From the NCBI GenBank assembly GCA_027331445.1, contig DAHWUD010000005.1, positions 1 to 47,052 of the forward strand: a stretch of 47,052 nucleotides of DNA. The letters are read 5' to 3'. Each line of letters begins with the position of its first letter. Positions within the stretch are counted from its first letter, which is position 1. Source of the DNA: Candidatus Amesbacteria bacterium (GTDB lineage: Bacteria; Patescibacteriota; Microgenomatia; CAZETR01; Amesbacteraceae). Both the position numbers and the translations under genes were made by a program. The notes beneath the pieces were generated by a model, which was not told the DNA's origin, did not search any database, and saw only the letters and a list, made by a program, of their open reading frames with translations. Shown here in pieces: positions 42,766 through 47,052 of the stretch.

Positions 42766-42814
42766 GGGGAAATATTAGCATAAAATATAGGGGGCGTGTG
42801 GTATAATTCTAGCC

Positions 42815-42862
42815 GTGGAAATGAGGCTATCAATGTTTATTTGCGGGCTGAGCCCGGTTTAA
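42815..42862 (+). CDS. Possible leader peptide (15 residues)
   Basis: GTG lies 7 nt after TATAAT, the same leaderless spacing as real genes here. The frame encodes MEMRLSMFICGLSPV and stops just before the terminator stem. It is out of frame with the downstream lipoprotein. A ribosome on it would cover the first hairpin, so it could steer the terminator decision. No run of one amino acid stands out as a sensor. Confidence 0.4.
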   Translation: MEMRLSMFICGLSPV

Positions 42863-42866
42863 CCAG

Positions 42867-42892
42867 TCCCGCCCAGTGGCGGGATTTTTTTT
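42867..42892 (+). terminator. Intrinsic terminator inside the leader
   Basis: A 7-bp stem (T plus CCCGCC pairing with GGCGGG plus A) closes over CAGT and is followed directly by eight T. It is the only clear Rho-independent terminator I see in the window. It lies downstream of a promoter and 8 nt before a gene, not after one. Confidence 0.85.
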
Positions 42893-42900
42893 GGCTGATT

Positions 42901-44781
42901 ATGGCTGGCAAAATTGAGGAACTCCGGGGAAAGGCAGTCGGAGCCGGGTTGGCCCTGATCGCCGTGGGCGGGATGGCGGCAGCCTGTGCCCCGGTGGGCG
43001 GGTTCTCCGGTAATGAGATCCAGGGCTCCCTAGTTGAGGTCACGTCGGGGGCGTCGGCGGCCAAGGAAACAAACGGGCAGAAGAAAGCGCTGGAAGAGCA
43101 GGCGTTGGCCGGCATTACGCAGTTGGCCAGAAGTCAGCTGAATATCGGTGAGTGTGACCCGGAGCTGTATACCGTGGTGGGAAATGACGGCAAGGCCAGG
43201 GCAGATTTGGTGTGTAATGATCAGCAGGGGTCTATTTTGGTGGCCCAGCTGATTGGGGGGAAGGAGACGGTGATCGGCCAACGGTTGTTTGCCAGTTCTG
43301 ACAAATCCAAAATATATTACAGGGGAGCTGACGGGAGCTTGCAGGAGGCGATGGAGGTCGCACCGGCCAGCGTGGTTTACGTGTTTTCTGACGGGGCCAG
43401 AGTGAAATTTGATCAGGAAGCAGCCGGTGGGCAAAACACCCGGAATGACCAGGTCCAGGTGGCGGTGGCGCAGCTGGAGGAAAATTTGACCGGGAATATT
43501 GTGGCCCAGGCCCAGGGGTTGGAAGCGACCAAGACGGCGACACCGGTACCGGCGACAGCTACGAAAGAGGTGCCAACGGTGACGAAGGCGCCAACGGTTA
43601 CCAGCACGCCTGAGGTGTGGGCGGCACCGGCGGAGTTGGATGCAAATGCATGGGAGCAGATGCAGAAGGATGGGTTTAGCGTGGTAAAGAGTAAAGACGG
43701 GGGGTGGGAGATGGACAAACTGGTGACTAAAAAACAGGATGCCCCGGAATGGACGGCGTCAGTGGGTAAACTGAGTGCGAAGGGGATCGAGATTACCGTC
43801 CCCGGAGAACAGGCCCCGGTGGAGTTGGAATATTCACAACTCAAGTTTGACGGAGAATATGTGTATACCCAGCAGACTCAAGTTGATCCGAAGTTCATTC
43901 ACTTGGACGTGGCGCAGAAGTTTGATGGAAGTAAGGATCTAATTTACAGCCCCTACACAGGCAAATGGTTTAGAAACGAATGGGTGACTACCCCCGACGG
44001 TCGTTTTATCTACAACGTGGCGGAGAATTTCGGAGGGTTGATGACAGCCAACTCAAAAAATCCGGCGGCGGAAGCGGATTTTTATGACAAACTGGTATCC
44101 GGTGTATATCACATAATGCAAATTGATCCCAGAAAGAACCTGCCGGCTGACCCATCAGCTTTTGTAAACAAATTTACGCAGGCTCTAACCAACGAGGGAA
44201 TGATCAGCGGGTTGACAATACCTGAGCGGTTCCCGGTACCCTTAAATAGTGCGGGTCAGCCGGTTAATGGAGCAAACCAATGGAGGAATGTAGATATGGC
44301 TGGAACCCCGGTTGAAATTCCTGCTGTAGCTCCGGGAATTATTATTGCCTTTTCTGATCAATCGGACCAGGAGGTGATGAATTACAGCCCGACGAACCCT
44401 GACTCGCCAGATTATAAATTTATTGATTTCCGGGGGGGATTGGGGCAGGTTCATTACGGAGTAGTGAAAGGGGAGGACGGAAAGAACCACTTGGAGATCA
44501 TTTTCAGAAAATCCTGGCCGATTGATGACGTGACTAACGGGGGGGTGGCATATAATGCCAGAGACAGCAAGTACTCACCAGAGCATAACTTTAAATCATG
44601 GGATGCGCTAATCCAGGATTGGGTGAATTTATCTGCTGTTGAATTGGACTCCTCAAATTATAAGTGGGAGTTTCTCGAGTTGTTTGATGTGATCTCGTTC
44701 GCGAAAGTTGAGGACTTTGGTGCTGTGCTGGCTCAATATCAGAACAGGGATCCTAAAGATGCGCCTTTCGTTTTGTATTAA
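42901..44781 (+). CDS. Large lipoprotein with Thr/Pro linker, function unknown
   Basis: I start it at MAGKIEELRGKAVGAG (626 residues), because a signal segment (LALIAVGGMAAAC) then ends in a lipobox Cys near residue 24; the longer tracked form runs through the terminator hairpin. An Ala/Glu region and a Thr/Pro/Val linker (TATPVPATATKEVPTV, about 210-240) separate two predicted globular parts. The C-terminal part is rich in aromatic residues, Asp and Asn and mostly beta (GKWFRNEWVTTPDGRFIYN). It is probably anchored outside the cell. No catalytic motif is recognised. A terminator-bearing leader controls it. Confidence 0.7.
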   Translation: MAGKIEELRGKAVGAGLALIAVGGMAAACAPVGGFSGNEIQGSLVEVTSGASAAKETNGQKKALEEQALAGITQLARSQLNIGECDPELYTVVGNDGKARADLVCNDQQGSILVAQLIGGKETVIGQRLFASSDKSKIYYRGADGSLQEAMEVAPASVVYVFSDGARVKFDQEAAGGQNTRNDQVQVAVAQLEENLTGNIVAQAQGLEATKTATPVPATATKEVPTVTKAPTVTSTPEVWAAPAELDANAWEQMQKDGFSVVKSKDGGWEMDKLVTKKQDAPEWTASVGKLSAKGIEITVPGEQAPVELEYSQLKFDGEYVYTQQTQVDPKFIHLDVAQKFDGSKDLIYSPYTGKWFRNEWVTTPDGRFIYNVAENFGGLMTANSKNPAAEADFYDKLVSGVYHIMQIDPRKNLPADPSAFVNKFTQALTNEGMISGLTIPERFPVPLNSAGQPVNGANQWRNVDMAGTPVEIPAVAPGIIIAFSDQSDQEVMNYSPTNPDSPDYKFIDFRGGLGQVHYGVVKGEDGKNHLEIIFRKSWPIDDVTNGGVAYNARDSKYSPEHNFKSWDALIQDWVNLSAVELDSSNYKWEFLELFDVISFAKVEDFGAVLAQYQNRDPKDAPFVLY

Positions 44782-44799: not shown

Positions 44800-44966
44800 A
44801 TGGAAAGGAAAGAAATTACCAGACGAGAATTTGTTAAAGCCTCCGTGTTAGCAGTGGCAGCGGGGGTAACTGGAACCGCTACTTGATGGATACGGGTGAG
44901 GTACGTGTTGACTCCGATCTGTTAGTACAGTCGGAGACAATGAACATCATATTGAAAGAGTCTTGA
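44800..44966 (+). pseudogene. Split Tat-signal gene (possible frameshift)
   Basis: The first frame encodes MERKEITRREFVKASVLAVAAGVTGTAT and stops at TGA (44884-44886). It is a textbook twin-arginine leader with nothing after it. A second frame starts at the overlapping ATG (44886) and encodes 26 residues (MDTGEVRVDSDLLVQSETM) to 44966. Either a frameshift has split a small exported protein, or two tiny coupled ORFs exist. A remnant of a larger gene is most likely. Confidence 0.5.
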
Positions 44967-44986: not shown

Positions 44987-45481
44987 ATGTCGAAGAGGGT
45001 GGTAATATTGATAACAGGAACAGCGCTGTTTTTGGTGGTGATAGTATTTGTGGTTTATCTGATGTTTTGGAAAGGATCAAAAGTAGCTTTCGTGAGTGCG
45101 AATAGGTCGTATCGATGGGATGTAAATTCAAATGTGATTAAGAGAAATGTTGAGACTAAACTGTTCCCTAATGGTGACAGTTTTCGGTGGATTTTGGTGG
45201 TAATTGGAAATGAATATATAGAGACGGGTCTCAAAACAGGTTTGAGAGAAGATGACCAGCCGTTTGCTAGTTATGAGTGGAAGGTCTATGGTCCAGTAGA
45301 TGTGTTGTATGTTTATATTAATCCGCCGGTTTGGAGTAAGCTGGATAAGGTGAGGGAGGATAATTTGCTGTCGGAATATATTCTGGGGGTATTGATCCCC
45401 GGGATGACAGGGTCGGCCTTTTCTATGCCTGATGCAGTTAACCTGTTGAAAAGTAACGGTTATTTGTTAAGAATTATATAA
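44987..45481 (+). CDS. Membrane-anchored hypothetical protein
   Basis: This 164-residue protein has a basic start and one membrane segment (VVILITGTALFLVVIVFVVYLMF, about residues 5-27). A mixed alpha/beta domain follows, rich in aromatic residues and presumably outside the cell (YVYINPPVWSKLDKV). TAATAT with a 6-nt spacer sets the ATG. Base composition is more A/T-rich than in the housekeeping genes. The gene ends just before the large surface protein, so they may be co-expressed. The function is unknown. Confidence 0.65.
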   Translation: MSKRVVILITGTALFLVVIVFVVYLMFWKGSKVAFVSANRSYRWDVNSNVIKRNVETKLFPNGDSFRWILVVIGNEYIETGLKTGLREDDQPFASYEWKVYGPVDVLYVYINPPVWSKLDKVREDNLLSEYILGVLIPGMTGSAFSMPDAVNLLKSNGYLLRII

Positions 45482-47052
45482 ATGGCCAAGAAAGTGGTAT
45501 TGGGGTTAATGATGGTATTGGCGTTGTTTGCGGTGGGAACTAAAGCAGCTGAGGCGGGTTGCACCGGAACAATAAAGTGCGAGACTTATACGAATGGTGT
45601 TTGTGATTCATCGCAGTGGTACACCGTCGGATGTGCGTACTCAGGAGGGGTATGTGGTGGTAATGGGTGTGGGTCAGGCAATCCATGCGCGGATCAGCCG
45701 AATTGTACGGATACGGGGACGGGGCCGACGGCGACACCGGCGCCGGGATCAGGTGGGCCGGGGGCGACCTACCCCAATGGGCAATGGTGGGGTTGGACCG
45801 GGGTGCAGGGGCCTTCACAGTGTGCGGCCAGCGGGTTTGCGACTGATTGGGACAGCAAGGGCTGGGTGACCACGCGGGTGGTGGATTCGACCTCTCTTCC
45901 GGCAAGCGAGGTAACCTCGGTTGTGGCTAATATTGCTTACCCTTCGCAACTGGCTGGGCAGTGCTACACGACTCTGGGATACGACTGTGGGTATTGGATG
46001 AATCTTTGGGGGGTGATACCGGCCAACTCGGTCCGGACCGTCCAGCCGCAGGCGCGTGACCTGAATAACAATTTTCCCTATTGTTTGAACTATCCTAGTT
46101 GCATTAATCCGGCAAAACTGCTGTGCAGTCAGACGCCGGAGTGCGGGACGCCAACCGGGCTGACGTGCACATACGCCGGGACGGCGACAACTTATGGTAA
46201 TACTTGTACCGATGACCACGGGATTACACGGATGGATATGTATTATTCACCTACTTCCACTCAGAGCTGGACCAGGTTTGGAACCAATACCTGGAATACG
46301 ACCGGGCTGACCAGCGAGACCTACTCGGCCAGTGCGACTTTTTCCACAACAGGCAATTATTATGTGACTACCAATGCCTGGGATGATTCAGGTTTGATAT
46401 TTGGCGGGGGTGCTAGTGGCCTGGCCTGTTCGGGAAATCCGTTTGTGTCGACCTGGCCCACGTCCGGGTTTTGGAGCTGCAGTGCGACCAATGCCGACCA
46501 GAAGACGGTTACGGTGGTGAATGCGGCGATGGTAAGCAATCTTAGCCCCAACGGATCGGCGATCGCCTGTACCGGCGGAGTTTTGGGTACACAGGCAGTA
46601 ACTTTGAGCTGGTCGGCGGCATACGCCAGCACTTTTTATCTCTCCGTGACCGATCTGACGGCTGGGGGGACGAGCAATTACACAGTGTCCAAGACGAGTT
46701 ATACCTATACGGCGGTGGGAGGCCATTCATATAACTGGTCGGTAAAGGCGGTTGATCAGTGTGGGGTGGTGGATGCGCCGGTGACGGGGAGTTTTGCCGT
46801 CGGTCCGTGCGCCACCCCCACGCCCACACCGGCCCCGGTGTATATTGAGGGGCTTCTGGAGGACAATACCGGAACGCTCTTAACCACTCCAATGGCGGTC
46901 ACCATTAAAGGGACGAACACCGGGACTTCTCAGGTGCAAACTACTTCCAGCGGCATGTTTTATTTTTTAAACCTGCCCGCAGACACCTACAGTATCTCGG
47001 CACCGTTGTTTGGTTACAGCGTGGCAAACGGAGTCTGTCTGAACTGCCCCAC
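45482..47052 (+). CDS. Secreted Cys-rich surface protein (3' end outside window)
   Basis: The frame is open from this ATG to the window edge, over 520 residues, though the ORF track omits it. A signal peptide (VVLGLMMVLALFAVG) is followed by a Cys-rich stretch (GGVCGGNGCGSGNPC) and Pro/Thr/Gly linkers (GTGPTATPAPGSGG and CATPTPTPAPVY). Several Ser/Thr-rich beta-type domains lie between. The last visible part (GTNTGTSQVQTTSSGMFYFLNLP) resembles a carboxypeptidase-regulatory-like or Cna-B-type beta-sandwich repeat. It is probably a large extracellular adhesin or structural protein. AAGAAT lies 7 nt before the ATG. Confidence 0.75.
   Translation, partial: MAKKVVLGLMMVLALFAVGTKAAEAGCTGTIKCETYTNGVCDSSQWYTVGCAYSGGVCGGNGCGSGNPCADQPNCTDTGTGPTATPAPGSGGPGATYPNGQWWGWTGVQGPSQCAASGFATDWDSKGWVTTRVVDSTSLPASEVTSVVANIAYPSQLAGQCYTTLGYDCGYWMNLWGVIPANSVRTVQPQARDLNNNFPYCLNYPSCINPAKLLCSQTPECGTPTGLTCTYAGTATTYGNTCTDDHGITRMDMYYSPTSTQSWTRFGTNTWNTTGLTSETYSASATFSTTGNYYVTTNAWDDSGLIFGGGASGLACSGNPFVSTWPTSGFWSCSATNADQKTVTVVNAAMVSNLSPNGSAIACTGGVLGTQAVTLSWSAAYASTFYLSVTDLTAGGTSNYTVSKTSYTYTAVGGHSYNWSVKAVDQCGVVDAPVTGSFAVGPCATPTPTPAPVYIEGLLEDNTGTLLTTPMAVTIKGTNTGTSQVQTTSSGMFYFLNLPADTYSISAPLFGYSVANGVCLNCP

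Follow-up and report, generated by a model that had tools for sequence, protein, structure and literature searches.

Relation to described attenuators

Leader-peptide attenuation is known mainly from bacteria in which the leader ORF is preceded by a Shine-Dalgarno (SD) sequence. In the pyrBI and pyrE operons of Escherichia coli, a leader ORF is combined with an intrinsic terminator without an antiterminator, and a ribosome trailing the RNA polymerase covers the terminator hairpin, which results in read-through. The SD-led leader ORF of pyrBI is longer than the one described here, is combined with a U-rich pause, and serves in sensing UTP. The leader that we analyzed lies ahead of a surface-protein operon in a 47,052-nucleotide stretch of DNA (the window) and resembles pyrBI in anatomy, in that a leader ORF would bring a ribosome onto a terminator with no antiterminator, the occlusion itself being presumed. 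It differs from pyrBI in that the ORF, in this leader and its counterparts, comprises 13 to 20 codons near the 5' end and stops ahead of the terminator, and in that the genes encode surface proteins. With the trp and his attenuators of E. coli it shares a pause-like hairpin (hairpin 1) followed by a terminator, as well as an ORF overlapping hairpin 1, but it has neither control codons nor a conserved antiterminator, and its ORF stops beyond hairpin 1.

More closely related organisms of the same family or class contain leaders with Met codon runs before metG and Ile codon runs before ileS. These are alike in placing a near-5' short ORF, a hairpin, and a terminator before the gene, but their codon runs match the gene, and in the ileS leaders the stop codon precedes the hairpin. 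In mycobacteria, translation of leaderless short ORFs upstream of operons has been found to control the next genes, with consecutive Cys codons sensing cysteine (Canestrari et al. 2020, as presented in PMC9031893). The window leader likewise places a leaderless short ORF ahead of an operon, but it has no residue run, and its ORF ends at the base of a strong intrinsic terminator. In the literature searched on Patescibacteria or the Candidate Phyla Radiation, we found no description of attenuation in a small-genome lineage of this type. The lack of an SD signal and genome sizes of 0.5 to 1.7 Mb point to Patescibacteria.

Anatomy of the leader

As read directly from the sequence, an RNA leader of approximately 90 nt lies upstream of a surface-lipoprotein operon; its parts and the three operon genes described below are on the + strand. 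The leader is preceded by an extended -10 promoter, TGG-TATAAT (42799-42807; hexamer, 42802-42807), without a clear -35 element. Exactly 7 nt downstream of the -10 is the GTG (42815) of a leader ORF of 15 codons, VEMRLSMFICGLSPV (42815-42862), which ends with a TAA stop codon (42860-42862) and also holds in-frame internal ATGs at 42821 and 42833. With the start site predicted at this GTG, the ORF would open at the 5' end of the transcript, as is characteristic of leaderless short ORFs. The peptide contains one Cys codon and no consecutive Cys codons. Hairpin 1, CGGGC-UGA-GCCCG (42844-42856), is located within the 3' end of the ORF, the stop of which is 4 nt ahead of a 9-bp terminator hairpin, AGUCCCGCC-CAGU-GGCGGGAUU (42865-42886), with a T8 tract (42885-42892). 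The promoter, leader ORF, hairpins, and T8 terminator reported in the preliminary description of this DNA were thus all recovered in place.

The terminator sits between the promoter and the first gene, with no promoter 3' of it, which is the arrangement of attenuators in general. The folding energy of the whole leader was not significantly unusual (z, -1.4). Among the cis-regulators of Rfam (riboswitches, T-boxes, and ribosomal protein leaders), none matched at gathering score, with Trp_leader reaching no more than an E value of 0.92 (17 against 41 bits).

Start signals and terminators in the genome

Scans of the same genome covered stretches totaling about 400 kb plus the window. ATG and GTG codons at the head of ORFs of 100 amino acids or more peaked sharply at distances of 6 nt (63 starts) and 7 nt (23 starts) downstream of TANAAT, compared with about 5 starts per position elsewhere (427 kb). 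SD-like motifs were not enriched (49 among 417 starts; control stretch, 48). These 86 long-ORF starts and the lack of an SD signal bear out the earlier view that most transcripts are leaderless, and the leader GTG is therefore at a normal leaderless position for this genome. Because short ORFs at the leaderless position are not in general excess in the genome, leaderless spacing alone is weak evidence, and the weight lies in the recurrence of the arrangement.

Strong intrinsic terminators, defined in a strict scan by a GC-rich stem that is uninterrupted or nearly so and by at least 7 T in 8, are rare, with 7 in 455,053 bases. The leader holds the only one that is clear within the window, as had been proposed. 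Three of the seven belong to copies of the window leader (on contigs C55, which is that of the window, C4, and C2), one precedes the gene for ribosomal protein L3 (C33:5318; identity by eye), one follows tRNA-Met, and two lie just 3' of genes; four of the seven are in leaders immediately ahead of a start codon. This rarity depends on the criterion, since a looser scan yielded about as many sites as did shuffled sequences, with no clear excess.

Copies of the leader in the same genome

Nearly identical leaders are present at three loci of the genome (C55, C4, and C2), and a fourth, diverged copy is found on C15. All four directly precede the start of a lipoprotein gene. Among C55, C4, and C2, 15 of 99 columns differ, none of which is in the stem of hairpin 1, and the single difference in the terminator stem is a change from G-U to A-U that preserves the pair. 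The leader codons differ at six places, with the amino acid altered in five; selection on the amino acids of the leader peptide was rejected, because the codon changes are mostly nonsynonymous. The C15 leader forms hairpin 1 as GUCUG-CCAGCU-CAGAC and the terminator as AAUCCC-ACCUGGA-GGGAUU, and its distance from terminator to start codon is the same as in C2. The C15 lipoprotein and the N-terminal part of its C2 counterpart share 45% identity. Two features of C15 count against an attenuator, namely, the absence of a start codon at the 5' end of the leader and a weak U tract, UUUCUU.

The C55 and C4 leaders, together with some 210 codons at the N-terminal end of the lipoprotein genes, are 96% identical in DNA; further on, the two proteins are wholly different. 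The C2 copy has only the leader in common, the DNA match stopping just ahead of the C2 lipoprotein start. In the corresponding comparison of window positions 42797-43550 with L012, the leader and lipoprotein N terminus match at 96% (C55/C4) and the sequence beyond is unrelated. A stretch at the contig ends is also common to the C55 and C4 surface proteins. The C55/C4 pattern looks like the result of modular recombination or gene conversion.

Leaders of surface-protein operons in related genomes

The same layout, consisting of a near-5' ORF of 13 to 20 codons, its stop 1 to 13 nt short of a terminator, and then the ATG of the gene, was found before surface-protein operons in five genomes of the same family: G002 (L087), G003 (L152), G004 (L151), G005 (L120), and G010 (L153). 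The leader proposed earlier, with a leaderless ORF stopping before the terminator, hence recurs both in paralogues and in five other genomes. These five leaders came from terminator-containing patterns or models, and the presence of the terminator in them was therefore itself selected for. Most matches of a class-wide covariance search (model R1) either arose by chance or reflected the terminator stem, and only those checked for context were retained. The leader pattern had no matches in viral contigs, and a single match in GTDB contigs, from Lucifera butyrica, was discarded, as it is not at a leader and was judged by eye to be coding.

In all six independent leaders having a near-5' start, the distance from the ORF stop to the terminator lies between -2 and 13 nt. 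Dinucleotide shuffles gave a chance of 0.09 to 0.15 per leader for this stop position and a product of about 4e-6 for the six, a value that is somewhat optimistic because the start codon was picked as the near-5' ATG or GTG. A GTG with leaderless spacing (7 nt after the -10) occurs in C55, C4, C2, and G002 and not in C15. Hairpin 1 adjoins the stop in five of seven leader types (C55/C4/C2, C15, G002, G005, and G004) with unrelated sequences and with P values of 0.005 to 0.03 per leader relative to shuffles; it was not found in the leaders of G003 and G010. The leader peptide sequence is not conserved, and the leaders have no common amino acid codon run of the type found in trp attenuators. The gene start is 79 to 99 nt from the expected transcription start in nine of nine leaders, and in none of the nine is there a -10 at leaderless distance before the gene start codon (upstream 14 nt inspected). 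The downstream gene consequently needs transcription through the terminator.

The downstream operon

The first gene (42901-44781), with an ATG at 42901, encodes a lipoprotein of 626 amino acids with the lipobox MAAAC and a T/P-rich linker. No Pfam or NCBIfam family was found for this protein, and the predicted structure of its C-terminal part (pLDDT, 32) is unusable. The gene under control had been described as a large lipoprotein; rather than being isolated, it heads a surface-protein operon. Its ATG has no SD sequence and is not leaderless, which counts against the attenuator reading. The second gene (44987-45481) encodes a small protein of 164 amino acids with one N-terminal membrane helix (by eye), and the same operon position is occupied by a small protein in C4, G002, G003, G004, and G010. 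The third gene (45482-47052), of which only the start is present because it runs off the contig, encodes a giant Cys-rich exported surface protein with equivalents in C4, C15, G002, G003, G004, G005, and G010.

The order of a lipoprotein or membrane-anchored protein, a small one-helix protein, and a giant Cys-rich exported protein is found in C55, C4, G002, G003, G004, and G010; the G005 operon lacks the small gene, and C2 lacks both the small and the giant genes. In the operons of the five relatives, the first gene encodes a lipoprotein or another exported or anchored protein. The small proteins have no mutual BLAST similarity, and the giant proteins have some domains in common. Between the lipoprotein and small membrane protein genes of the window, a short ORF (44801-44886) resembles the remnant of a twin-arginine signal peptide (METRREF-like motif, ITRREFVKASVLAVAAG, and then a stop).

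Proposed mechanism and alternatives

From the parts of the leader, their spacing, and their recurrence, all taken from the sequence, we infer termination, read-through, a pause, and a role for translation. With a probability of roughly 0.55, we propose that the leader is a translation-coupled transcription attenuator without an antiterminator, the 5' arm of its terminator being masked by a ribosome that has reached the stop codon. RNA polymerase would begin transcription near 42814, and the 5'-terminal GTG could immediately be loaded with a 70S ribosome. Without a following ribosome, hairpin 1 and then the terminator would fold, and the RNA would end at about 42892. If a following ribosome had reached the final codons or the stop while the terminator was being synthesized, its leading edge would cover the terminator 5' arm, and the polymerase would read through into the surface-protein operon. 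A ribosome with a stop codon in the A site covers roughly 10 to 12 nt further. Since this footprint takes in part of the terminator 5' arm, occlusion would be the simplest route from translation to read-through. Hairpin 1, which resembles the trp-type pause hairpin, is a candidate pause element and would probably hold the polymerase so that the ribosome catches up.

The strongest alternative, although an unlikely one, is that the terminator is partial and fixed, with a constant fraction of polymerases passing so that expression of a costly operon is both lowered and steadied and the leader ORF is irrelevant. Such a terminator would be in keeping with the unconserved leader peptide, with the lack of a conserved antiterminator, and with the C15 leader, which has no 5' start codon. 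It is opposed by the ORF stop at the foot of the terminator in six of six independent leaders, by the recurrence of hairpin 1 next to the stop, and by the control-codon runs in leaders of related genomes.

It is improbable that the hairpin and U tract act instead in translation or RNA stability, as a start signal or as 5' protection in a genome without an SD signal. Although the U tract ends a few nucleotides 5' of the start codon in all leaders, and similar hairpin-U tracts precede the start codons of rpsA-like genes and rplC, a hairpin with U8 has the textbook shape of a terminator, the metG and ileS leaders fit attenuation, and the position of the ORF stop would be left unaccounted for. We give still less credence to the terminated RNA of 80 nt being a trans-acting small regulatory RNA, with the downstream gene transcribed through leakage: every copy lies directly ahead of a lipoprotein start codon, and the leaders of the relatives have layout rather than sequence in common, even if the promoter and terminator form a complete small unit of which the genome contains several nearly identical copies.

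Least probable is a classical attenuator with mutually exclusive pairs, as envisaged in the preliminary description, because the antiterminator formed by GCGGG (42843-42847) and CCCGC (42868-42872), a 5-bp pairing possible in C55, C4, and C2, was rejected on its energy (-16.2 versus -26.1 kcal/mol for the terminator fold, the gap being about 10 kcal/mol in all three copies) and on its missing conservation in the diverged leaders C15, G002, and G005. In these, the longest complement between the 5' arms of hairpin 1 and the terminator is 1 nt (C15) or 3 nt (G002 and G005). No conserved antiterminator excluding the terminator, as in trp-type attenuators, was found among the leaders. Hairpin 1 and the terminator recur together across leaders, while pairing between the two is not kept; as they recur with the stop codon between them, a ribosome covering the terminator is favored over exclusive RNA pairings.

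If translation-coupled attenuation is correct, the giant-surface-protein operon of these uncultured cells would be gated by translation itself, and terminators, which are rare in this genome, would mark regulated operons and offer a sequence handle on regulated genes in organisms beyond culture. We tentatively extend the proposal to a general valve of this SD-less, reduced-genome lineage, in which transcripts would open with a mini-ORF close to the 5' end and a 70S ribosome would thereby be brought to the base of an intrinsic terminator. This valve might work without an amino acid code at surface operons, where it would sense the supply of ribosomes or the rate of termination, and by means of codon runs at metG and ileS.

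Other leaders in related genomes

Three genomes of one family in the same class (G270, G275, and G327) have a hairpin and terminator ahead of ileS, the identity of which was checked for G275 and G327. The near-5' ORFs of these leaders (L119, L123, and L124) encode MLHSVKIIIK, MSQTTKIIIT, and MYLVNKIIIR, each with three Ile codons before the stop, and they look like classical Ile attenuators. In two genomes of the family of the window genome, G012 (L154) and G005 (L155), leader ORFs encoding MNSKVTMMMTSV and MSMMMTC, each with three Met codons, are combined with a terminator and precede metG or a metG-containing operon (gene identity by eye). The ORF of a purF leader (L110) stops at the terminator. 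The Met runs, the Ile runs, and the purF ORF make attenuation in the lineage likely, and the leaders with Met or Ile runs also suggest that these genomes use near-5' ORFs to couple attenuation to translation.

In one family, L102-L111 consist of a promoter, an ATG-stop pair with no codon in between, and a GC-rich terminator. The L102 unit is located about 200 nt upstream of 16S rRNA, with a boxA-like sequence 3' of the terminator, and these units are possibly start-stop attenuators of rRNA operons.

The rpsA-like genes at L029, L036, and L115 have a common leader (TTTATTTGGGGTA...CAA..TCCC) directly upstream, with a terminator and no ORF. A pattern search for similarity of such leaders (TTTATTTGGGGTAACCAATCCC) to the window leader matched only the genome's own copies, two leaders of the rpsA-like kind, and one further site, and the similarity was not taken as homology. 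Genes for ribosomal protein L3 (rplC) also lie behind terminator-containing leaders, both in the same genome (G000:C33:5318) and in relatives (L130, L131, and L101).
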